Virus record (IMG/VR): IMGVR_UViG_3300028837_002960
Span: 1-35,542 of that record
DNA from: a virus
Strand: one strand, 5' to 3'
DNA: 35,542 bases
Under the pieces are notes generated by a model that saw only the letters and a list, made by a program, of their open reading frames with translations, was not told where the DNA came from and made no database searches. The stretch's first letter is position 1; the number at the start of each line of letters is the position of its first letter. Made by a program: the position numbers and the translations under genes. Shown here piece after piece: positions 7 to 34,435 of this stretch.

Positions 7-840
7 ATGCCAACGGCTATAGAATGGGCAACCGAAACATGGAACCCGATAACGGGCTGCTCGCCGGTCTCCGAGGGCTGCGCGAATTGCTACGCGCGTC
101 GCATGGCGAACCGCTTGCGCGGCAGGTATGGGTATCCGGCGGACGATCCATTTAGGGTGACGCTTCATGAAGATAAATTGGCATTGCCATTACGCTGGAA
201 AAAGCCACGCATCATATTTGTCTGCTCAATGGGTGATTTGTTTCATGAGGATGTGCGTTTTTCGTGGATTGCCAAGATTTTCAAGATTATGCACGACTGT
301 CCGCAACACACGTTTATCTTGTTGACAAAACGGCCCGGAAGGCTTTCTGATTTTGCACATGACAATCCGCAAATCGGCCTATATAATCACCCGAATATCT
401 GGCCGGGCACAACGATAGAAAACGACCGCAGGCTCGATTGGCGTCTTGGAAGATTATTAAACCTCGAAACAGTAGGAAAGCGCGTTATAAGCGTTGAACC
501 GATGCTCGGCTCCGTCAATCTTAATGTTGTCCCATGTTGGCAGTGCAATAGCCCGAATCCGCAAATCCGATGGCCGTGTCCCGCGTGCAAAGGTCGCCGT
601 TTTGCGTGGCCGGACTGGGTAATCTGCGGAGCGGAAACCGGGCCGGGTGCCCGGCTCATGAACCTTGATTGGGCGCGCGATCTACGCGATCAGTGCGTGA
701 CCGCCGGTGTGCCCTTTTTCTTCAAGCGAGACTCGAATGGCAGTCGGTTGCTTGATGGTCGTGAATGGAATGAAATGCCGGGGGGCGTGTCATGGTATAA
801 GAAACAAATCGCGGAACGCGACGATGCTGAAAGGGAATGA
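7..840 (+). CDS. DUF5131 family protein (phage Gp37/Gp68-like)
   Basis: This 277-residue protein opens with the signature of the DUF5131 (phage Gp37/Gp68) family: an IEW..TWNP..GC stretch followed by GCANCYA, giving C18-x6-C25-x2-C28. Such clusters suggest an iron-sulfur, radical-SAM-like enzyme, but the reaction is not established. A second Cys group (PCWQC and PCPAC, around residues 178-194) looks like an inserted zinc knuckle. The family usually ends near the LDGREWNEMP motif seen at about residue 250; here an extra tail of about 19 residues follows, and it matches an internal piece of the portal protein (see the repeat at 784-824). The start is the ATG six bases from the window edge, so its ribosome site cannot be judged fully. 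It leads a plus-strand group convergent with the late operon. Confidence 0.85.
   Translation: MPTAIEWATETWNPITGCSPVSEGCANCYARRMANRLRGRYGYPADDPFRVTLHEDKLALPLRWKKPRIIFVCSMGDLFHEDVRFSWIAKIFKIMHDCPQHTFILLTKRPGRLSDFAHDNPQIGLYNHPNIWPGTTIENDRRLDWRLGRLLNLETVGKRVISVEPMLGSVNLNVVPCWQCNSPNPQIRWPCPACKGRRFAWPDWVICGAETGPGARLMNLDWARDLRDQCVTAGVPFFFKRDSNGSRLLDGREWNEMPGGVSWYKKQIAERDDAERE
784..824 (+). repeat. Inverted repeat copy A (shared with portal gene)
   Basis: This 41-base stretch at the 3' end of the DUF5131 gene matches the reverse complement of 28444-28484 in the portal-MuF gene with one mismatch, and similarity continues for about seven more bases. Both copies are read in the same coding frame and encode GVSWYKKQIAERD. 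The ATG of the next small gene starts at the last base of the repeat. Confidence 0.9.
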
Positions 841-17333: not shown

Positions 17334-17810
17334 CTACCATTTCTCCATCGATTCGTCATAATCACCAGTGATCGGCGTACCTTCGGACGTTCGTTCGAAC
17401 CCAAACACCGGGTCTTCGTCTTCGCGGTTCGATACAACGCCGGTGTCGACCAGCACATTGCCATTTAAATCAGTAAATATCGTCGGGTGTTCGACCAGGT
17501 AGTCTAGGTTTTCCATTGCCCGCTCCCAAAACGATTCAACCCAGTCGGACTCATTTTCGGATTCCTGGGTAAAAATCCTGCGCAGCACATAATAGGTCGC
17601 AATGTCATCCGAAATTGAGTCCACATCTTCGGGCGGGTTGACCAGCGGCAGTTTTGCCACCCCGATCGTCGGCGCCAGCCTTGCGTCAATCTTCGCATCG
17701 GCCTTGGCCCGAAATCGGGCAACCATTGCCTCGGTAATCTGGTTAGCCGTAACTAGCGAATCATAATCAATTATGTTGTCTGATACACCGTCTGTGGTTC
17801 CGTATGCCAT
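17334..17810 (-). CDS. Head completion protein, DUF1320-like (Mu gp36-like)
   Basis: A 158-residue protein: a loop/helix with VTANQITEAMVARFRAKADAKIDARL, then VDSISDDIATYYVLRRIFTQES. This is the pattern of DUF1320/gp36 and related head-tail connector adaptors, which join portal and tail. The order capsid - small protein - gp36-like - gpG-like agrees with this. ATG 17810 is preferred over the longer ORF because a nine-G tract lies just upstream as ribosome site (17819-17827 on the plus strand as C9); the extra 14 residues of the longer ORF are basic and read through that tract. Confidence 0.7.
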   Translation of the reverse strand: MAYGTTDGVSDNIIDYDSLVTANQITEAMVARFRAKADAKIDARLAPTIGVAKLPLVNPPEDVDSISDDIATYYVLRRIFTQESENESDWVESFWERAMENLDYLVEHPTIFTDLNGNVLVDTGVVSNREDEDPVFGFERTSEGTPITGDYDESMEKW

Positions 17811-17838
17811 GAGCTGCGCCCCCCCCCTTCTTCGCTCT

Positions 17839-18183
17839 CTATGCAGTAGCAAACATTAACGTTGCTGTAGCCGTGCCTGTCTGGTCGCCGTTCGATACAA
17901 CCTCGACCACATCATCGACAGCAAAATGCACGCGCCCCACAATCGGGACGTTTTCAGCCCCGTTGGCCCCCACGGTAATGGCGTACGCCGGATCGCCGCC
18001 AATGCGCAGAAAAAAAGCAGCTGGTACGTTGCCGCTCCACGCAATCGCAACGCCGAGTACCATGCCGGCAAACGGGGCGGTAAAACCCCTTACCTGTTCA
18101 CCATCGGCCGGGTCAGTCGCCGTGCCGAATAGCGTTGCATCAACCACCATATTGTCTTTGTTGTAGCCCATTCGTTTGGCCAT
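17839..18183 (-). CDS. Small head/virion protein
   Basis: A 114-residue, mostly beta-strand protein (TLFGTATDPADGEQVRGF, AGMVLGVAIAWSG, PAAFFLRIGGD, VDDVVEVVSNGDQTGTAT). The strands and small size suggest a decoration, spike or head-completion protein, but no named family is recognised. ATG 18183 has an AAGGAG ribosome site nine bases away. It is the first structural gene after the cargo cassette and starts the head-tail joining group. Codon use and composition fit the neighbouring structural genes better than the cassette upstream. Confidence 0.6.
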   Translation of the reverse strand: MAKRMGYNKDNMVVDATLFGTATDPADGEQVRGFTAPFAGMVLGVAIAWSGNVPAAFFLRIGGDPAYAITVGANGAENVPIVGRVHFAVDDVVEVVSNGDQTGTATATLMFATA

Positions 18184-18213: not shown

Positions 18214-18846
18214 CTATTCATAAACTAGAAAAGACACCTTGTTTGTTTTTTTTCCGTCTGGCGTTGGTATTTCGTAAGCGTTTTCAATGCGCTGTTTTAA
18301 TTTTTTCTTTTTGAAAAACGAGTCTATTTCTACCCACTCGCGCACTCGGCACGTGCTATGATTCACCAAATAGCTTTTGTCCATTGCCTGTCCGACAATA
18401 AGCAATCCCCGCGTTACGCGCTCCAGTTCGCTGACCGCCGCTGCCAAATTCTCATCGTCTACGATATGCAAAAGGACGTACATGCAAAAAGTTGTGTCAA
18501 AGCAATCTCTAGCAAACTCTCCCATGTCAGACAAGTCCATTTTGCAACACGGAATTTCTGGATAACGAGCCTTGAAAAACTCAACCATGTTCGCCGAAAA
18601 ATCAACGGCGGTTATGTTGGTAAATCCCAATCGCTTAATTATTGGGATGTTTCGCCCGATGCCAGTGCCTGCATCGAGAAGCCGACCCGCTGGATCAAGT
18701 CCCAGCAATTTTAATATGCGAAAAATCCAGTCGCGTTCAAAATCATCATAATCGGCATTTCCCATAATGCCGCAGATCGGATTATCCCACGTCGCAGTAT
18801 CATCGAATAAATCAATGACCGTCTGATTGCTTGTAATATAATTCAT
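18214..18846 (-). CDS. SAM-dependent methyltransferase (class I)
   Basis: A 210-residue class I methyltransferase. Motif I is LLDAGTGIG (residues 56-64), followed by the acidic strand end TAVDFSANM (motif II, about 78-86), a CCKMDLSDMG stretch (motif III region) and TTFCMYVLLHIVDD (motif IV region). This matches small-molecule/sugar-type methyltransferases (Methyltransf_11/25 group) rather than DNA methylases, since no DPPY or Pro-Cys motif is present. It begins at ATG 18846, directly after the TAA of the giant fusion gene, so the two are probably translated together. In this context O-methylation of a glycan is the best inference; small-molecule or protein substrates remain possible. Confidence 0.85.
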   Translation of the reverse strand: MNYITSNQTVIDLFDDTATWDNPICGIMGNADYDDFERDWIFRILKLLGLDPAGRLLDAGTGIGRNIPIIKRLGFTNITAVDFSANMVEFFKARYPEIPCCKMDLSDMGEFARDCFDTTFCMYVLLHIVDDENLAAAVSELERVTRGLLIVGQAMDKSYLVNHSTCRVREWVEIDSFFKKKKLKQRIENAYEIPTPDGKKTNKVSFLVYE

Positions 18847-21800
18847 TTATCCGGCCCTTGCCCCATAGGGCGCCTTGATTGTTTTGTAATACCGAGCCAC
18901 ATTAACAGAATAACCAACAGGATAAACGATGCCACATTCGTCGATATGCTCGTATTCTCCCGATTCTTTCATTCGGGCTGCATCGTCACTCCCGGGCATT
19001 CCGATATATACGTTTTTGCAAACTTTGTCCGGACTAATTTTTTCTAAAATCCTATCTGTTTCCACAAGATCAGATTCGGTCTCACCGGGATAGCCAACAA
19101 TTACTGACGCATAGGTTTTGATTCTGTTTTTATGACACATCTTGAAAAACCGCTCGGTTTGTTCAACCGAAATTCCCTTGCCCATCGCATCGAGAATCCG
19201 CTGGCTTCCAGATTCAACTCCAACATATAGCCCGACAAGCCCCATGCTTGCCATGTGATGAAGTGCGCTGTTGTCAAGCGTATCTACTCGTGATTCGGCA
19301 GCAAATTTTATGTCAAGCCGATTCATAACCGATGAAACATCTATTGCGCGTTGTGCATTCGCGGTAAAATTATCCTCGCGAAAATATATTGTTTTGTACC
19401 CAAGTTTTTTTAATTGTGCCGCGCCCTCACCCACCTTGTCGGGGCTCATAGCCGTATATCTGCGAGTCAGTATTTTGCGGCTTGAACAAAACCCGCACAT
19501 GAATGGACAACCACGCGACGTGTTCATGGTCGCCATGTCTGTCATGCCAAATCCCTCGTTATCTGTGCACGCATACGGCTTATCAACAAACATTTTCCAG
19601 TCCGGCCATGGTAGCAAATCAAGGTCTTCAAGCCTCGAAGCCCCAATAATCCTGTCGTTTATTTTGCCATCAACAAGCTGCCAAAAAGCGCGTTCGCCCT
19701 CGCCACAAACAATATGGTCAATATGTGTTGGTACGGATTCTGGAAACAGCGTTGCGTGGGGCCCGCCAACCACTATCGGGGATTGCGTAAACCCTCGCAG
19801 TCTATTCAAAAATTCAACAGTGCGGTGCCATCCAATAGTAGTAGTATACACTCCCACCCAATCGGGATTAAAGGCCTTTATTTCTGCTTCAAGATCAGGG
19901 TTTTCAACGCGATAATCAATAATTCGTACATTTTGATTTATTGAGCCTAAGAATGCACCAACGAAACCGAGCCCCTGCGGAAACGTAGGCGGCGGCAGGC
20001 CAAACGATATTTCATTCGGCGCAGGGGGCGGCGGGAAAATCAATAAAATGCGAGCGCCACACAATCGCGTCCATCCATTATTCCGTATTACATTTATTCC
20101 GAATTCGCGCCTTATGGTGTCTACCACGTTGCGCACTTCCATGGTGCCACGAGGACAACGCTTTCTATATGCAGTAAAGTTAGGCGCTTCGCGCGGTACG
20201 TGTTCAGCACGCGATTCCTCAACGCCACACATCCTGTATCCAGCTCTTGTAAGATGAAGGCTTATGTACAGGTCTTCAGCGATTCCAATGTCCTGATCGC
20301 CCCATGAATAGGCCCAGTTCAATGCCATTCGCCGCAACAACGATGCCCCTCCAGAAAAATACGGGGTGTCGTCAAGATTCAATAATGCTTCTGTTTCCTG
20401 ATACGGCACAAATTTAACATGATCGCCAGACAATTCAATGCGTGTACTATACGCTCCCTGCTGAAATTTCTTTCCTTCTTGATCGTAGACCGCTGAGGCT
20501 GCCGCTACATTCGGGTCAGTATCAAGCGCTACTATCAATGGTAATAGCCAGCCAGAGGAAACCAGCATATCATTATCTATCCACGCAACATATTCGTTGT
20601 CTATTTCGCGCATCATAAACGCGCGGCCACCAGGACATCCAAGATTGGTCTCGGAATGAAATGAATGTATAAACTCATGATCCGCCGCGCACTTGTCAAA
20701 ATACGCGCCCGTTTCATCGGTGGAACCATTGTTAAAAAGATAAAGTGTATATTCAACGTCTGTGTTTTTTAGAATGTGCTCTACGCAGCGCCTTGTAGTT
20801 TCAAGTCGATCATAAGCAATGACAAGAATACCAACGCGAGGCAACCCCAAGCTTGCTGTTATCCTGTCCGCACAAGCTGTCTGGTCTCCGTGTTGTAGCC
20901 TCGATATGTGGTCGTGGCCAACGCGCCACGAATAAAGCACTTCGGGTATTCCGCCAATCTTCCAACCACTGCGACGAAGATCAACTCCGAGCTTGTAGTC
21001 CTGGGCATATTTGAAGTTTTCATCGTGACCACCGACATCAATAACGGCCTGACGTCTCAACGTTGCGCCACCAACTGCCAACCCCCGCGTTGCCTCAAGT
21101 GGCTGTTCGTTTATATTAGAATCCGGTCGTTTGTATATGCGCGAGTGATTGCCAAAAGATTCAAACCACGATCCGCACATAGCGTGATCGGGGTTTTCTT
21201 CAAGGAAACGGGATTCTTTTTCAAGCCGTGTTGGCTTGCTCACATCATCAGCATCTTGACGCGCCACATATTCGCCGCGACATAGGCGCCAGCCAGCATT
21301 CAGCGACCGGGTAAGCCCTATGTTGTGTTCGTTTTTATAATACTTTATTCGGGAATCCTTAAACGACTTTATGATTTCTGCCGTTCGGTCGGTGCTGCCA
21401 TCGTCAATTATTACAAATTCGTATGCCTCAAACGTCTGGCTTAATATGCTCTCGATGGCTTCGGCAATATGATTTTCCGCATTATAGGCACACATTAAAA
21501 CCGACACGCGCACCGGGTCAACGGTCTTGACGCGCGGCCTTGTCACTACGTTTGATTCATAAATATTTTTATATGCTTCGCGCAGTGGTTCTATCCCACG
21601 CGACCACGGCCATTCCATTGTGACTTTTCGTGCAGCCAGCCCCATGTTTCTGCACGAACCGCGAACAATGCCAAGGCCGTGAATTAATCCATGAATGTCA
21701 TCGGCAATCCACCCGTTTTTACCGGGTGTCACAAGCTCAGGTATCTGGCCGACCGGTGTTCCAACAACCGGTATTCCACACGACATAGCTTCGAGCACTG

Positions 21801-22521
21801 GCATCGGCCCGCTCTCGGCCCACGATGTTGCCAGATAAACATCCATCGCGCTGTAAACTCCCGCCATTTCGCCGTGGGCTTTTTCGCCAAGGGCAATGTG
21901 TTTTACGCCTGCGGATTTTAACATCATGCAAAATTCGTCATTTCTTGAACCAATTATCAAGACAATGGCGCCGGGAATATGGCGGACAACTTCGACAAAT
22001 TTTTCGATAGCCTTGTATTTTTTGCTGCCGCTTGAGTTGGTTGCTCCAACAAACCCAATCACAAACAAATCTTCGGAAATGCCAAGCTCGCCACGACACC
22101 GCACTCTATCTTCCGGCTTGAAAAGATCGGCGTCTACGCCATGACGACATTCAATCACGGTAAATTCCGCATCCCTAAATGAGTCTGCGTCTAATTTGCA
22201 AAATGCAGTTATCGCATCACAGTCACGGGCAATTTTTATCTGGCATTCATTCACTTTCGGCCATTCTATTTTTCTAAGAACGGGCTTTCCGTGATGGTTA
22301 ACAGAATCGTCATAACCAAACTGTGTTAAATAGTGGACTATGTCCGTTTTTTTGCAAAGATCGTCGAATTGTTCTTTTTTGCTTTTGATTTTCGCGGATG
22401 TAAATATTTTGAAATCGAAGTCGCCTTCTAGGCACCGTACTATTTCACGCGCAACTGTTCCAAGCGCCCAATCAAGCGTATCCGGCACCAATAATATTTT
22501 AGGCTTTTTCGCGCTGTTCAT
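18847..22521 (-). CDS. Four-module protein: GT4-like, two GT2-like glycosyltransferases and B12-binding radical SAM
   Basis: This 1224-residue protein holds four enzyme-like modules. Residues 1-325 resemble GT-B family 4, with the E-x7-E signature ESGPMPVLE (E236, E244) and GIPVVGTPVG. Residues about 337-555 are a GT-A family 2 domain: VSVLMCAYNAENHIAEAIES, IDDGSTDRT, and the DXD-type DADD at 423-426. Residues about 563-800 are a second GT2 (ILVIAYDRLETTRRC, NNGSTDETG, and DND at 649-651). Residues about 823-1224 carry a cobalamin-binding-like domain (ILLIFPPPP, VVGGPHATLFPE) and a radical SAM core with C1005-x3-C1009-x2-C1012 in RGCPFMCGFC. No membrane segment is evident. ATG 22521 has an AAGGGA site. 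Probable role: synthesis and modification of a glycan on virion or host; substrate unknown. Confidence 0.85.
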   Translation of the reverse strand: MNSAKKPKILLVPDTLDWALGTVAREIVRCLEGDFDFKIFTSAKIKSKKEQFDDLCKKTDIVHYLTQFGYDDSVNHHGKPVLRKIEWPKVNECQIKIARDCDAITAFCKLDADSFRDAEFTVIECRHGVDADLFKPEDRVRCRGELGISEDLFVIGFVGATNSSGSKKYKAIEKFVEVVRHIPGAIVLIIGSRNDEFCMMLKSAGVKHIALGEKAHGEMAGVYSAMDVYLATSWAESGPMPVLEAMSCGIPVVGTPVGQIPELVTPGKNGWIADDIHGLIHGLGIVRGSCRNMGLAARKVTMEWPWSRGIEPLREAYKNIYESNVVTRPRVKTVDPVRVSVLMCAYNAENHIAEAIESILSQTFEAYEFVIIDDGSTDRTAEIIKSFKDSRIKYYKNEHNIGLTRSLNAGWRLCRGEYVARQDADDVSKPTRLEKESRFLEENPDHAMCGSWFESFGNHSRIYKRPDSNINEQPLEATRGLAVGGATLRRQAVIDVGGHDENFKYAQDYKLGVDLRRSGWKIGGIPEVLYSWRVGHDHISRLQHGDQTACADRITASLGLPRVGILVIAYDRLETTRRCVEHILKNTDVEYTLYLFNNGSTDETGAYFDKCAADHEFIHSFHSETNLGCPGGRAFMMREIDNEYVAWIDNDMLVSSGWLLPLIVALDTDPNVAAASAVYDQEGKKFQQGAYSTRIELSGDHVKFVPYQETEALLNLDDTPYFSGGASLLRRMALNWAYSWGDQDIGIAEDLYISLHLTRAGYRMCGVEESRAEHVPREAPNFTAYRKRCPRGTMEVRNVVDTIRREFGINVIRNNGWTRLCGARILLIFPPPPAPNEISFGLPPPTFPQGLGFVGAFLGSINQNVRIIDYRVENPDLEAEIKAFNPDWVGVYTTTIGWHRTVEFLNRLRGFTQSPIVVGGPHATLFPESVPTHIDHIVCGEGERAFWQLVDGKINDRIIGASRLEDLDLLPWPDWKMFVDKPYACTDNEGFGMTDMATMNTSRGCPFMCGFCSSRKILTRRYTAMSPDKVGEGAAQLKKLGYKTIYFREDNFTANAQRAIDVSSVMNRLDIKFAAESRVDTLDNSALHHMASMGLVGLYVGVESGSQRILDAMGKGISVEQTERFFKMCHKNRIKTYASVIVGYPGETESDLVETDRILEKISPDKVCKNVYIGMPGSDDAARMKESGEYEHIDECGIVYPVGYSVNVARYYKTIKAPYGARAG

Positions 22522-22639
22522 TGATTTCCCTTTTAAGCGAATTCGCCATCATCAACATGAATTTCCAACAAAGTGGATAACTCTGTTCAAGCGAACGCAT
22601 TCTATGAAGATAACCATCAATGATTTTGATCGCGTCCAT
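22499..22639 (-). CDS. Small ORF between glycosyltransferase genes
   Basis: A 46-codon ORF begins at ATG 22639, immediately after the TAG of the GT9 gene (TAGATG), and ends at 22499, overlapping the first 23 bases of the fusion gene in another frame. The peptide is amphipathic and ends in a charged helix (SLKREINEQREKA), with one Cys. It fills an otherwise unexplained 118-base gap and would couple translation of the two large glycosyltransferase genes. No family is recognised, and it could be a leader for the giant gene rather than a functional protein. Confidence 0.45.
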   Translation of the reverse strand: MDAIKIIDGYLHRMRSLEQSYPLCWKFMLMMANSLKREINEQREKA

Positions 22640-24061
22640 CTACACAAGTTCCAGTTCTGCAACCTGCTTGTATCTCGCAATATCCCCCAACATCCCCTGC
22701 GCCTCGCGCACAATCTCTTCCACCCCGATCGCCGCCATGCATTTCACATCCCGATCATACAAACAGCTTCGATATATCCCGCGCTCCGGCTGCGCCAGCT
22801 TTTCGTCACGGCTCCACCGTTCTTGCCAGTCCCAACACGGGCAGCATTCGGCCCCCGGTCGTCCAGCCGGATGAATCCAGTTTACATATCTGTAAGTCGC
22901 ATACCGAGCCGCCGGCGGTATCGAGCCGATCAACGCAAGGGCCGGGACACCCAACGCTTCGCAGGCATGAACCAGCCCGGTATCCGGCGCGATCACCAAA
23001 TCGCACGTTTCGCAGACTGCCGCAGCCTCAAGAAATGAATCCGTTTGACCGCAAAGATTAAGAATATTCGGATGGTCTCCATAAAAATCACCGCCCAGCG
23101 CGACATCACGGTCAATCAGAACAAGTTTCGCGTTCGGCATCGCGCGCGCGAACGCGCGAAAAAGTTCTGGTACCCGCCACAGCGACCATGTTCGGTTCCA
23201 GGCAGCCGCCTGCATCACGTACCCGATGCGGATTTTGTCCTTCGGGCATTTATCACCGATCAGTTTTCTTGCTTTTTGTCTCGCCGCGGGCGAGACGTGC
23301 AATTCAAGCTCCCGGTCTTCAAGCACGCCAAGCCCAACATGCTTTGCGAAGCTATCAATCCGGAGCCCGCGGTTTCGCGGATATTTGTAGCTTTCAAGCG
23401 CCCGGCACCAGTTAATCACAAGGTCCCAATCGCTACCAGTGGTCAGGTCAATAGCGTGGATTGAGACAATTTTATCAATTTCAGATATTCCGGCCAACAG
23501 TCCGGCGAAGGCCGGCTTGGTTGCGTAGACAATCCACGCGTATGGCAGCTTTTCGCGGATCCGCCGAACGGTCGGGATGCTCGCTATCACATCGCCGGCG
23601 CCTTCGTCTCGCATAATTAGCACGTTCGGTGCCGCAGGTAGCCGATCCCCAATCTGAGAATCCCAATCACTTACCGGCACTCGAGATGCATGGGCTACAT
23701 AAACTCCGCGGGTATCACAGAAATCGAGTACCGTGCTCGCGCCATCAAAAAACCGCTTCACGTCCGCCAGCCGGTCTTCTGAAACCACAGACGGAACCAT
23801 GCGGTAAAACAAACCGAATGGCGTGATGCATTCTGTACGCGATCCAGTATAAACAACACGCACAAGCTTCAACCCGGCTGAAATTCCCGCATCCCCGATG
23901 TTCTGCGGTGTGTGCAGTTTCAGAAAACCCTCGCGTTCCAATCCGATAAGCTCGGCATCGACTTCGCGTAATGGAAGAAAATGGCCTTGCGGCACACGCC
24001 ATGTGCCGCCGTTACCATCTGAAATCGCTACGTTTTGCAATGCTTCTGGCCGCACGTTCAT
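22640..24061 (-). CDS. Family 9 glycosyltransferase (heptosyltransferase-like) with extra N-terminal region
   Basis: From ATG 24061 (GGAG ribosome site nine bases upstream) this protein has 473 residues. Residues about 146-455 are GT9-like, the ADP-heptose:LPS heptosyltransferase family with a GT-B fold. Signatures are VLIMRDEGAGDVIASIPTVR (compare the usual LGD segment), the second-domain IRIGYVMQAAAWNRTWSL, the nucleotide-sugar loop APDTGLVHACEALGVP (358-373), and a Cys-bearing tail (ECCPCWDW ... DRDVKCMAAI) that occurs in several GT9 proteins. Residues 1-145 have no recognised domain (RVPQGHFLPLREVDAELIGL ...). It is the first gene after the major capsid terminator, so its expression depends on read-through or on a weak unseen promoter. 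Confidence 0.85.
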   Translation of the reverse strand: MNVRPEALQNVAISDGNGGTWRVPQGHFLPLREVDAELIGLEREGFLKLHTPQNIGDAGISAGLKLVRVVYTGSRTECITPFGLFYRMVPSVVSEDRLADVKRFFDGASTVLDFCDTRGVYVAHASRVPVSDWDSQIGDRLPAAPNVLIMRDEGAGDVIASIPTVRRIREKLPYAWIVYATKPAFAGLLAGISEIDKIVSIHAIDLTTGSDWDLVINWCRALESYKYPRNRGLRIDSFAKHVGLGVLEDRELELHVSPAARQKARKLIGDKCPKDKIRIGYVMQAAAWNRTWSLWRVPELFRAFARAMPNAKLVLIDRDVALGGDFYGDHPNILNLCGQTDSFLEAAAVCETCDLVIAPDTGLVHACEALGVPALALIGSIPPAARYATYRYVNWIHPAGRPGAECCPCWDWQERWSRDEKLAQPERGIYRSCLYDRDVKCMAAIGVEEIVREAQGMLGDIARYKQVAELELV

Positions 24062-24089
24062 TGAGACTCCGCCCAGTTTGTCGATTTGG

Positions 24090-24127
24090 AAAAAAGCGTG
24101 GGGTCGGGACCGAAGCCCCGGCCCCAC
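24090..24127 (-). terminator. Intrinsic terminator after the major capsid gene
   Basis: Read on the minus strand, a GC-rich hairpin (24127 to 24098; 13-position stem with one A-C mismatch and one G-T pair, closed by a cTTCGg tetraloop) is followed one codon-length later by a run of six T (24095-24090). It lies 27 bases after the major capsid stop and 28 bases before the GT9 start, a classic position for ending or reducing transcription after the most highly expressed gene. Confidence 0.8.
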
Positions 24128-24154: not shown

Positions 24155-25111
24155 CTATCCGATAACATCCTCGATGAAGTAGCCACAGTACTCACAGACC
24201 ACTTTTTCGTCCAGAATTTCGCAGGGCTCAATGAAATCGGCCTTGCGAGCCGCATCGCGCCACTTCGAGGTCTGGAACTTCTGCGACACGAACTGAAGCC
24301 CGAGCGTGAGCGTCCGCGGGGTCAGCGCGTTCGGCGCCACGTAAGCCACCAGCACGTGATTGCCCCACATGTTCGAACCCGAATATGTCTGGCCCTCCTC
24401 TGCCGAATCGTACGCGCTGCCGGGGATCAGGACCTTCATGTTCCAAAGCGTCGCAGGCAAGTCGCCGTTGACCAGCAGGTCAGAATGGGTATGCTTGACG
24501 AGATCGCGTACAGTCGGATCGCGCTTGACCACCTTCGATACCTGCGCGGGAATGACAATGACGTTCGGGTCGTTCCCGGTGTCTTCGCGGACCGCTTCCT
24601 TCGCGGTGTCGATCCGCACCTCGATCGCGTCCTCCGTCGAGTCGGTATCGAACGCAGCGTTATTCCACTGCTCGTCGCCGGCCAGTTGTGTGGTATGCCC
24701 CGAAGTCGCATACGCAGTCGCCACAAAAATCGTGTCGACCACACGCTTTTCCTTGTTCAGCAGAATCATGTTTGTCAGATTCTGCGTCACGTCGAAGTCT
24801 GGCGCCAGCGGCGCGTCTGCATTCTTCCGCATCCGGTCGGTTACGAAGTCTTTCAGCGCATGTTCCCTACAGCGATATGTCGGCGTCGAATCAATCTTCC
24901 AGGAATCGACCTGTTGGGATTCGGCGCCATCGGCGCGGACGTCCTCGGTTATTCGGAAATCCTGGCGTCCGTACACGAAATAGGAATCGCTTTCCTTGAT
25001 TACGGCAACCGGCGGCATGATCTGGTCCGCGATCAGCCCGCCGTTTTTGTACTTTAGCGAAAAATTAGTTAATGCTCGATCGATATGAATCGTTCCGGCT
25101 TTAGTTGCCAC
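24155..25111 (-). CDS. Major capsid protein
   Basis: A 318-residue protein with the features of an HK97-fold phage coat protein. Its N-terminal part (RALTNFSLKYKNGGLIADQIMPPV ... ESDSYFVYGRQDFRI) has the QIMP..V segment common in coat proteins that contact the scaffold. Central helices (KRVVDTIFVATAYA, EAIEVRIDTAKEAV) and the strand VLVAYVAPNALTPRTL fit the family. It follows protease/scaffold and decoration genes. The start is GTG 25111, set by GGAGGTG seven bases upstream. The C-terminal CEILDEKVVCEYCGYFIEDVIG contains three cysteines, unusual for a coat protein. A strong terminator follows. Confidence 0.85.
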   Translation of the reverse strand: MATKAGTIHIDRALTNFSLKYKNGGLIADQIMPPVAVIKESDSYFVYGRQDFRITEDVRADGAESQQVDSWKIDSTPTYRCREHALKDFVTDRMRKNADAPLAPDFDVTQNLTNMILLNKEKRVVDTIFVATAYATSGHTTQLAGDEQWNNAAFDTDSTEDAIEVRIDTAKEAVREDTGNDPNVIVIPAQVSKVVKRDPTVRDLVKHTHSDLLVNGDLPATLWNMKVLIPGSAYDSAEEGQTYSGSNMWGNHVLVAYVAPNALTPRTLTLGLQFVSQKFQTSKWRDAARKADFIEPCEILDEKVVCEYCGYFIEDVIG

Positions 25112-31413: not shown

Positions 31414-32961
31414 TCACCATTTATCCATCTCGTCCCGATCAATCCCGGCCCCCATATCACTGCCCAGCCCCGGCTCGTCGCCATCGGTCGATTCCCGTTC
31501 CCCTAAACCTCCACCGCCGCGCCCCCCGCTACTGCCGGCATAGCCGGCCAGTATCTCGTCCCACGGTCTTTTATAGTCTTTCATCGCATACCACGCCGCA
31601 ATCGACACCGCTCGAGTCCGATCGCCATGCCCCTCACCGCCGCCGCGCGGATATACAATCTTGAACGTCACTTTGTTTTTATCCCGCGCCACAACTTCCT
31701 CGGCCTCGAGCCCCATCAGCTCCCGTTTGAATGCCTCATCCGGCGGCATCAACAACGCACCAGCAACCACCAGGTCATAAAGATTCTTCGATATCTCCGG
31801 AACCGATTTGCCGGTCGGATCAAATTTCTCCACCCGACCGGGGTATTTCGCGACCAGTTCCTCATACACGCTCAACATTTGCCACGCTTCAAGCGCCACT
31901 TTCGACAGCCCGAAGTTCTTAAAACCCCATTCCGCATATTCTTTTGCCACATTCGTTTTTACCGGCGCCTTGTGAGACCCTTTCCACACTCGCATGTTTA
32001 GCAGTCTCACGGCCCGCCCGTCATTCAGCCCGCCGCCCCCGGCCAGTCGCACCCCCTTCACGATTGCGCCAGCGGTCCAGTCCCGCACGTGCCCGAAGTC
32101 GAGTCCAAGTACACCCCCGCCATCGGGATCACCCCCCACATGTCGCATGTCGGGCACCACACACCGGTCAACCTGCTCGGCGGTAAATAGGTCGCCACCC
32201 TCGCCCCACTTGCACAAATGCAACCGCGCATATACTCCGTACGGCACTTCTTCGGCGCGCCGCGCCAGTAATTCATCGGTAATCCAACTCGGCAATCGCG
32301 GATTATCAGCCCCGGAAAAGAAAAAAACGCGGCCGGCCGCCCCGTCCCGCTCCCACAATTTTCGGAATCGTTCCCGCACGTCCCAGCACAACCCGTCTCT
32401 CCTTGCCCCCGCATTGGTCAGTACCACGATCTTTGTCCGCTTTTTCGTGACCAGCGATTCCCACAAATCTTGTTGCGATTTTTTGTTCCAGCAATGCAAC
32501 TCATCTACGATAGCCCAATTCTGTCCCTTGCCAAACGCACTCAACGCATCGCTCGACTCAATCGACAATTCGCTCCCTTTCGCAAATTTGAATATCCAGG
32601 TCTGAGTATCAACATCATTTTTTAATTCAGGATTCGGCCTCAACAACCGCCCTATAATCGCATCTTTCACAATCGCTGCCTGGTCCCGGTCGGTTGCATA
32701 TACCCGAACCACAAATCCAGGCCGCATAAAACAGATCGCAAAGCCACATGCCGCCGACAACCCCGTTTTATCCCAGTCCCGCGGCATTTCGAGATAAACT
32801 CGATCAACCTGATCCGAAAATATCGGGTCGACCACGACCCGATATTGCCACGGCTCCCCCAGCTCGTCGAAAGACAGCTCCGGCCGATCCAGATCGGGAT
32901 GATAAAATCGCCGCACGAATTCAATCGGCGTCGTCGGCGTCTGTTTTTTACAATTTAACAT
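31414..32961 (-). CDS. Terminase large subunit
   Basis: A 515-residue packaging motor from ATG 32961, overlapping the end of the radical SAM gene by 14 bases. The ATPase half has a degenerate Walker A (EMPRDWDKTGLSA, residues 58-70, with K65-T66 but Asp where Gly is usual), a Walker B (WAIVDELH; D153, E154) and coupling-type VLTNAGARRDG. The nuclease half begins at LGLDFGHVRDWTA (D288), with later acidic residues such as HGDRTRAVSIAAWYA near the end. The C-terminal 50 residues are a Gly/Glu/Asp-rich tail. It would cut concatemeric DNA and pump it into the prohead with the P27-like small subunit located two genes upstream. Length is normal. Confidence 0.88.
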   Translation of the reverse strand: MLNCKKQTPTTPIEFVRRFYHPDLDRPELSFDELGEPWQYRVVVDPIFSDQVDRVYLEMPRDWDKTGLSAACGFAICFMRPGFVVRVYATDRDQAAIVKDAIIGRLLRPNPELKNDVDTQTWIFKFAKGSELSIESSDALSAFGKGQNWAIVDELHCWNKKSQQDLWESLVTKKRTKIVVLTNAGARRDGLCWDVRERFRKLWERDGAAGRVFFFSGADNPRLPSWITDELLARRAEEVPYGVYARLHLCKWGEGGDLFTAEQVDRCVVPDMRHVGGDPDGGGVLGLDFGHVRDWTAGAIVKGVRLAGGGGLNDGRAVRLLNMRVWKGSHKAPVKTNVAKEYAEWGFKNFGLSKVALEAWQMLSVYEELVAKYPGRVEKFDPTGKSVPEISKNLYDLVVAGALLMPPDEAFKRELMGLEAEEVVARDKNKVTFKIVYPRGGGEGHGDRTRAVSIAAWYAMKDYKRPWDEILAGYAGSSGGRGGGGLGERESTDGDEPGLGSDMGAGIDRDEMDKW

Positions 32962-34435
32962 AATCTTTATACCGTTCCCATTTTGGCCAGAATTTACCCT
33001 CATTATCAGCTATGGTAACTTGCTGCCACGGAAAAACAAAATCTTCACCCCTTTCGGCACACAAATCCTTTTCACATATTCCAACGGATCGACAGGCCGA
33101 TATAAGCGATGCAACCGCTGTCCATTTATTCGACATAGAGGCCGCATGAAGCTTTTTGTTGGTGGCTATGTTAAAAATGATTTTCGCAGCTCTTTCGTCT
33201 CCACGTATCGTCAACAACATCATCAAACGGCGATTAGGATATATGGCCCCACCGCGATGGGCTATCACAATGTTTGTGAGCCTTTTTGATATCCTTTCTT
33301 TTCTGTTTGCGCTGCGCCCGAACTCTTTTGCATAATCTCGATAAAGATCATGCGGCGCATATTGCATCGGAGTGTGATAAAATCCCATAAACTGAGATTG
33401 GCTCAGAAATAATTGGATTTTTCTGTCGAGTTTCAAGTCAAGCTCGACCATCATATCCCAGAATTCATCTATGTCATTTTGATTGACGCCCGGAAGCCCT
33501 GCGATCAAATACATTGTCAGACTGTTTATTTTGTCGCCGCTGGGCTTTCGCATGTCATTAACGGCATGGAGAAAAAGCTCTATAAATCTCTCGCGCGTCC
33601 ACGGCTTGCCGATGTGCCTCCGCAGCCGTTCAGAATATCCCTCAAGCCCAAATCTAACCTGTGTTGTTACCGTATGGCGAAACAGCGTGTCAAGCCGGAT
33701 GTCAGACCCCATGTTGTTTTTTCCACTATCAGAAATGGCTCCTTCGATGATCTCAAATCCCGAATGTGCACCACGATCAGGCGCAAATGTCGCTATTGTT
33801 TTTGTCGGCGCGCATCTAATCATTTCAACACAATCGGTTGTCGGCAATTCAACATACTTTTTATAATTGCCAATTACGCAAAACGGACATCGATGTTTAC
33901 AGCCACGCGCAATCTCAATCCGTGTTATCGGTTTTTTTCTGTGTTCAACATGCTGCCACGGCAGAAGCTCGGTGCATTGTTGCAAAACGGCAACCTGGTC
34001 TCCGAAGCTATAAATACCATCAACGTCATCCCATCCGCGTTTCCCGCATAGGGCCTCATAAATCTGGCCTGTCACGTCGTCAACATCGCCCACAAACACA
34101 TGATTGCAAAAACCCGAAAGAACAAGAGGGTTTAGCGCGGCAATGCCCCCACAAACAATCAATGGCTTTTTGTTTTGGGGGTTAATTTTGGCTTTCGTTA
34201 AAAATCGCGGCAGCGCATAAATATCTTTCCACCAATACAACGTTACAAAAAGCACGTCGAAGCTTTTTGCAGAACGCTCATTCGCCGCATGGATTTTGAG
34301 CAGCCCATCGCCATCTAACTTCTTTAGACGTTCACACAGCAACTCAAGTCCAAATGTCGCCACATTGCCAGCAGCACTTTCTACGCCTCTCTCTGGGCAA
34401 TAAAAAGACACTTTGCCTATTCGCTTTTTAGACAT
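32948..34435 (-). CDS. Radical SAM enzyme with B12-binding-like N-terminal region
   Basis: A 495-residue protein with an intact radical SAM cluster in RGCKHRCPFC (C179-x3-C183-x2-C186). The preceding 170 residues resemble the cobalamin-binding domains of B12-radical SAM enzymes (FDVLFVTLYWWKD, LIVCGGIAALNPLVLSGF), but the histidine motif DxHxxG is not seen and the usual GEGE is replaced by GDVDD, so B12 binding is doubtful. Later segments (TTQVRFGLEGYSERLR, SLTMYLIAGLPGVNQNDIDEFWDM) are typical of the TIM-barrel part. The substrate is unknown. ATG 34435 has an AGGGGG site and overlaps the ParB gene. Its location inside the packaging group suggests a role on DNA or on early virion parts. Confidence 0.85.
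   Translation of the reverse strand: MSKKRIGKVSFYCPERGVESAAGNVATFGLELLCERLKKLDGDGLLKIHAANERSAKSFDVLFVTLYWWKDIYALPRFLTKAKINPQNKKPLIVCGGIAALNPLVLSGFCNHVFVGDVDDVTGQIYEALCGKRGWDDVDGIYSFGDQVAVLQQCTELLPWQHVEHRKKPITRIEIARGCKHRCPFCVIGNYKKYVELPTTDCVEMIRCAPTKTIATFAPDRGAHSGFEIIEGAISDSGKNNMGSDIRLDTLFRHTVTTQVRFGLEGYSERLRRHIGKPWTRERFIELFLHAVNDMRKPSGDKINSLTMYLIAGLPGVNQNDIDEFWDMMVELDLKLDRKIQLFLSQSQFMGFYHTPMQYAPHDLYRDYAKEFGRSANRKERISKRLTNIVIAHRGGAIYPNRRLMMLLTIRGDERAAKIIFNIATNKKLHAASMSNKWTAVASLISACRSVGICEKDLCAERGEDFVFPWQQVTIADNEGKFWPKWERYKDYVKL

Follow-up and report, generated by a model that had tools for sequence, protein, structure and literature searches.

Several described systems resemble parts of the locus considered here. 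AprD4, a radical SAM diol dehydratase of apramycin biosynthesis, deoxygenates an aminosugar together with a reductase partner, and GenK and GenD1 are B12-dependent radical SAM methylases of sugars (PMC5461906). Among phages, PMC11256854 reports that the mycobacteriophages Che8 and Rita, with phage-encoded glycosyltransferases (GTs), bear covalent glycans on their major capsid proteins, and that GT genes lie near the 3' end of the genome in mycobacteriophage Maravista; it mentions neither a B12-binding radical SAM enzyme nor a single-chain multi-GT fusion. The GT/radical SAM cassettes of pelagimyophages have been read as serving host-surface modification (PMC7029224). The joining of GT and B12-radical SAM modules in one recurring system is apparently undescribed so far, and a search of a collection of open-access full texts found no account of such fusions.

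The gene of interest lies in the window, by which we mean the whole 35.5-kb stretch of the IMG/VR virus record IMGVR_UViG_3300028837_002960. It combines a GT4-type module, two GT2 modules (GT2a and GT2b) and a B12-binding radical SAM module, and is set among the following features.

24155..25111, minus strand: major head protein (phrog_1005, 1.4e-59)
22640..24127, minus strand: GT9 (heptosyltransferase-type) gene with an N-terminal extension of about 150 aa (PF01075, 2.6e-7; TIGR02193, 9e-9)
22499..22639, minus strand: putative 46-aa ORF between the GT9 gene and the fusion gene (from the sequence)
18847..22521, minus strand: GT4-GT2a-GT2b-B12-binding-radical SAM fusion gene, 1224 aa, ATG start, free of internal stops
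21523..22521, minus strand: GT4-type (GT-B) module, aa 1-333 (Pfam; model and fold match to MshA/BshA)
21790-21816, minus strand: E-x7-E of the GT4 module, aa 236-244
20842..21516, minus strand: GT2a module, aa 336-560 (Pfam)
21244-21255, minus strand: DADD of GT2a, aa 423-426
20062..20841, minus strand: GT2b module, aa 561-820 (Pfam)
20569-20577, minus strand: DND of GT2b, aa 649-651
19672..20049, minus strand: B12-binding-type Rossmann module, aa 825-950, with GGPHAT at aa 919-924 (PF02310)
19054..19527, minus strand: radical SAM core, aa 999-1156, with FREDNF at aa 1047-1052 (PF04055, 8e-25)
19486-19509, minus strand: C1005/C1009/C1012 of the radical SAM core
18214..18846, minus strand: class I SAM-dependent methyltransferase (Methyltransf_11, 4e-14)
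17334..17852, minus strand: Mu Gp36-like connector, downstream of the cassette (PF07030, 7e-7)

The sequence-only reading had recognised four enzyme signatures in one uninterrupted frame and had suggested a profile search of each module. Pfam analysis of the 1224-aa product bears the reading out, with GT4, both GT2, B12-binding and Radical_SAM families all matched above their curated cut-offs, and the residues that had been named (E236/E244, DADD 423-426, DND 649-651 and C1005/C1009/C1012, with GGPHAT from 919) are exact. The first module is matched by Glycos_transf_1 (aa 146-274, 8e-18) and Glyco_trans_1_4 (1e-17), which cover the GT-B C-lobe, and its predicted fold is GT-B, matching MshA and BshA (mean pLDDT 74). 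With the E-x7-E motif, these features place it among the retaining GT4 enzymes, although its N-lobe, at some 140 aa, is below the usual length and is modelled in part with low confidence. Glycos_transf_2 is matched in two stretches (4e-57, the better at aa 340-467), each with a DxD-type motif, DADD in GT2a and DND in GT2b. The B12-binding domain (PF02310, aa 847-948, 9e-14) scores 51.8 bits against a cut-off of 32.1 and precedes a core with both the CxxxCxxC motif and the fold of the radical SAM superfamily, an arrangement that is the hallmark of the class B (cobalamin-dependent) architecture. In an alignment of 57 relatives, the three cysteines are invariant, as are both glycines and the histidine of GGPHAT, and the AlphaFold model of the B12/radical SAM part has a mean pLDDT of 93.5. 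Sequence prediction over the full protein identified no transmembrane segment. The modules are connected by tight linkers; an AAGGGA lies upstream of the annotated start, and no internal start with a convincing ribosome-binding site was found at the module boundaries.

Single-sequence scans with the whole fusion protein or with the head protein found no relatives, and tblastn against plasmids and phages returned only generic GT2/GT4 or B12-radical SAM matches, none spanning 80% of the query. Alignment-based scans succeeded. In IMG/VR they yielded more than 450 B12-radical SAM relatives, the closest of which are GT-linked, and a refined alignment then brought up 19 loci in viruses and, in GTDB genomes, 123 matches, of which 80 were kept. 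The window radical SAM module falls in a family of 61 rows, supported at 100/99 in the tree, whose members number about 45 in bacteria and 14 in viruses. Each genome checked has one copy scoring above 500 bits against less than 290 bits for its other radical SAM proteins, so the family is well separated. It also appears rare, since a first look, in which at most nine candidates per genome were scored, placed it in at least 2 of 198 Nitrospirota genomes. Within the family tree, the window module forms a long, deep, separate branch and departs from family-typical residues at C256 (Ala), W254 (Phe), V195 (Ser) and W199 (Leu; module numbering). Because of this long branch and the missing residues, its activity may have drifted. 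In one viral family member (L013:7998-10187), the radical SAM domain is interrupted by an intein that contains a LAGLIDADG endonuclease domain; L099 and L100 carry the same radical SAM protein.

The radical SAM family has a steady partner. A GT2 domain lies within 600 bp after the radical SAM domain at 45 of 59 loci, and the 32 best matches of the window GT2a among the approximately 266 GT2 domains of the family loci all follow a radical SAM domain directly, in the same ORF or the next gene, with 33-44% identity. The GT2 tree groups the window GT2a with 35 of these 'after-rSAM' domains and with L093_2804, which lies one gene further on from its radical SAM domain, in a supported clade of 37 members. 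If a GT2a/B12-radical SAM pair is defined by a radical SAM module in the tight clade and a GT2 in the 'after-rSAM' clade, the window carries both halves, in one chain and in an order changed from that found elsewhere. Judged by the best matches and the clade, the two have been inherited together as partners in phages and in many bacterial phyla. GT2b clusters with GT2 domains that come later in the bacterial megaproteins and with phage L093, a kinship that is tentative because the branches are long. The best phmmer match in the PDB (2z86/2z87) had raised a chondroitin-synthase-like tandem polymerase as a candidate for the two GT2 modules; any GT2 would be expected to match in a similar manner, and GT2a and GT2b fall in different clades, so this candidate was rejected.

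It had been suggested that the combination of GT and B12-radical SAM modules was without known precedent and that the same kind of architecture should be sought elsewhere. The search was fruitful and removes the first suggestion, as GT2/B12-radical SAM fusions occur both in phages and in many bacterial genomes, in differing module orders. Fusion to GT2 domains is seen in 19 of the 46 family ORFs from bacteria and in 4 of the 14 from viruses, in proteins of up to 3706 aa. The bacterial megaproteins, exemplified by L106 (Planctomycetota, 3706 aa), L110 (1377 aa) and L128 (Nitrospirota), hold in one chain an orthologous radical SAM module (37-40% identity), its partner GT2 (40-45%) and further GT2/GT4 modules. 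Their usual order is radical SAM then GT2a, whereas the window has GT4-GT2a-GT2b-radical SAM and lies in a phage head operon. The 3706-aa ORF of L106 comprises, by one count, six GT2 modules, one GT4 module and the radical SAM module and, by another, at least eight GT domains with the B12-radical SAM module, and is directly upstream of fliD; at this locus (L106:2271-20011), two consecutive giant ORFs of 2201 and 3706 aa precede fliD. The phage fusions, in L086 (945 aa), L090/L007 (1276 aa), L095/L010 (908 aa, cut at the 5' end) and L103, resemble the window in that a B12-radical SAM module is joined to GT2 modules and the gene lies within or close to a block of virion or packaging genes. Their orders differ from that of the window, being B12-radical SAM, GT2, GT2 in L086 and L095/L010, and GT2, GT9, GT2, B12, radical SAM in L090/L007, and they apparently represent separate fusion events. 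As the GT2 fusions are scattered over several separate parts of the radical SAM tree, fusion would have arisen repeatedly or been lost often. The window fusion is thus neither an artefact nor unique, but a permuted phage variant of a recurring GT/B12-radical SAM system.

The placement of the gene in a phage structural operon, noted earlier, is confirmed. Upstream of the cassette lie the head protein gene (24155-25111), a protease/head gene (25604), the portal gene (27504) and TerL (31414); downstream are the Gp36-like connector, a tail completion protein and the tape measure gene. Between the head and connector genes come first the GT9 gene, immediately after that for the major head protein, then the 46-aa ORF and the fusion gene, and last the methyltransferase, whose ATG directly follows the fusion-gene stop codon. 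The putative 46-aa ORF fills exactly the space from the GT9 stop codon to the fusion gene and overlaps the start of the latter; it could serve translational coupling or encode a small protein. The GC content of the cassette is 0.465-0.494 against mostly 0.52-0.57 around it, a dip which suggests that the cassette was imported. The idea that the methyltransferase is orthologous to those of related phage cassettes was rejected, no specific kinship being found. Host prediction from the terminase and head protein was dropped, as both are too distant from those of cultured phages.

Comparison of gene neighbourhoods bears on the target of the enzyme. Flagellar genes (FliD, FlgK, FlgL, flagellin or FlhB) are present at 7 of 45 bacterial family loci and at none of 35 outgroup radical SAM loci, and the FliD, FlgK, flagellin and FlhB identities were confirmed by Pfam. 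Six of the 19 fused family loci have them alongside, against none of the 26 unfused ones (L108, a near-duplicate of L107/L112, was left out); this gives p=0.003, a value that is optimistic because some contigs are near relatives. The bacterial versions beside fliD, flgK/flgL or flagellin look like islands of the flagellin-glycosylation type. The rest of the 45 loci lie in general GT or sugar clusters; with only seven flagellar loci, many short contigs and three that are near-identical, a protein target is not proven even in bacteria. In phages, GT cassettes adjoining major-head or connector genes recur in unrelated genomes. Phage L086 has the order major capsid protein, GT9-like gene, connectors, cassette with a B12-radical SAM-GT2-GT2 fusion, and then putative tail genes, assigned from order and length only; its GT9 gene, directly after that for the capsid protein, is 26% identical to that of the window (6e-21). 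The GT/radical SAM cassette of L017 is followed by a head-tail adaptor, a tail chaperone and the tape measure gene, and those of L010 and L006 by a terminase. L188 and L190 have head proteins of other families, yet multi-GT genes are again close behind the major head protein gene, and a capsid-adjacent GT hotspot is likely to be wider among phages. The GT9/multi-GT fusion genes of L188, L190 and L196 encode 800-900 aa.

Overall, we favour, with a probability of about one half, a soluble multi-GT enzyme with a radical sugar-tailoring step, acting on a protein glycan that most likely belongs to the virion. One cytoplasmic protein would offer three GT sites, one of the retaining GT4 type and two GT2, together with a B12-binding radical SAM site. 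GT2a and the radical SAM module would act as a conserved functional pair, the radical enzyme altering the carbon skeleton of a sugar, by C-methylation or by AprD4-like dehydration/deoxygenation, and GT2a handling the same sugar or its acceptor. The GT4 and GT2b modules, with the separate GT9 and methyltransferase of the operon, could then extend and cap a short glycan. Expression with the head and connector genes would lead to glycosylation of a virion protein, with the major head protein as first candidate, and the related bacterial megaproteins probably glycosylate flagellin in like manner. The capsid glycans of Che8 and Rita offer a precedent for such a target. The catalytic activities, the order of steps, the radical chemistry and the target are all inferred; the modules, their fusion, the GT2-radical SAM co-inheritance and the operon positions are directly observed. 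More speculatively, phages and bacterial flagella may share a soluble, single-chain mode of glycan assembly in which a B12-radical SAM enzyme rebuilds the sugar skeleton and a dedicated GT2 places the sugar; capsids would then bear radical-tailored sugars, and the window would represent a permuted, reduced form. We offer this wider proposal tentatively, as a doubtful one. If true, radical SAM chemistry is built into the protein-glycosylation assembly lines of bacteria and phage particles, which would open a way into the glycan shields of capsids and, for uncultured phyla, into the glycans of flagellin, and would supply single-chain enzymes making carbon-modified sugars. The co-inherited GT2a-radical SAM pair makes the role directly testable.

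Between virion protein and host surface, the two targets named in the sequence-only reading, a protein is favoured over a lipid glycan of the host surface, because several phages have such genes next to those for the capsid and bacterial relatives lie in flagellar clusters. A tailored sugar side chain on LPS, capsule or another envelope glycan, blocking competing phages (superinfection exclusion), is the usual reading of phage GTs. It draws on PHROG, where the GT2 and GT4 modules match 'GtrB-like O-antigen conversion' and glycosyltransferase morons, on the interpretation given to the pelagimyophage cassettes (PMC7029224) and on unfused bacterial family members in general polysaccharide clusters (for example L132, the unfused pair of Desulfoferrobacter suflitae DRH4). 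We consider it the less likely reading here, though a serious rival. Serotype conversion of the Gtr type involves a membrane flippase, GtrA, and membrane GTs, whereas the fusion protein lacks a transmembrane segment and the cassette shows no recognisable flippase, GtrA-like or other membrane protein; among the scanned window genes, which exclude the smallest ORFs, there was no GtrA-like match. Moreover, unrelated phages repeat the late position in the structural operon, just behind the gene for the head protein, and the bacterial versions beside flagellar genes are the fused ones. Two cautions apply to the virion target: no sugar-nucleotide synthesis gene was recognised within the window, and operon position can reflect tolerance of insertion rather than function. 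Hypermodification of nucleotides or DNA bases with a glycan seems very improbable: phages are known to glycosylate DNA bases and the fold relative OxsB acts on a nucleotide, but the relatives lie in glycan, flagellar and virion operons rather than in nucleotide-metabolism modules, and several GT sites per chain suit an oligosaccharide. An assembly chimera, or a pseudogene-like join of separate genes, must be considered for any metagenomic contig. We give it scarcely any credence, because 1224 codons are open with all motifs intact and tight linkers, fusions of the same kinds exist in other contigs, and the GT2 and radical SAM partners in this one frame are co-inherited.

The virion-protein reading can accommodate more than one radical chemistry. 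C-methylation, as first proposed, is a possibility and not a finding, and an AprD4-like dehydratase or another non-methylating enzyme (deoxygenation, epimerisation) acting on a glycan sugar is a substantial possibility, at somewhat less than even odds. AprD4 is the nearest solved structure by both profile (4.8e-34; 3.1e-35, followed by B12 C-methylases) and fold (6fd2, with paromamine; E 4.7e-20, TM 0.79), ahead of MgmA, TsrM, OxsB, CysS and TokK, and it acts on an aminosugar. The family has the FR...F...R and W.CETR motifs in common with AprD4, although in the second of these motifs the window has Ala where 53 of 57 relatives have Cys. Identity to AprD4 is nevertheless 17%, and to NF033070 (AprD4 family radical SAM diol dehydratase) the window module scores 66.2 bits against a cut-off of 500; it is below every NCBIfam equivalog cut-off. 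The N-terminal domain of AprD4 has no family-profile match and nothing in the profile alignment to correspond to GGPH, whereas the window B12-binding domain passes its Pfam cut-off and belongs to a family with invariant GGPH. OxsB and MgmA align through the B12 domain, AprD4 only in the radical SAM core. The cobalamin-dependent C-methylases MgmA (9ccb), TokK, TsrM, GenK and GenD1, of which the last two act on sugars, share the B12-binding and radical SAM architecture and the fold of the window module at 15-19% identity.

Two further genes of the window are related to this chemistry. One is a further radical SAM gene (32948-34435, minus strand, 495 aa) of the packaging module, flanked by a ParB-like gene and TerL; it is matched by Radical_SAM (3e-9) and Radical_SAM_N2 (3e-8) and weakly by TIGR03960 and TIGR04013, which are B12-binding radical SAM families. 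At the contig end, a DUF5131 protein (3e-73) is encoded on the opposite strand (7-840, plus strand) and weakly matches TIGR04471, 'radical SAM mobile pair protein A' (5e-16); it may be the third protein of radical SAM type in this small contig.
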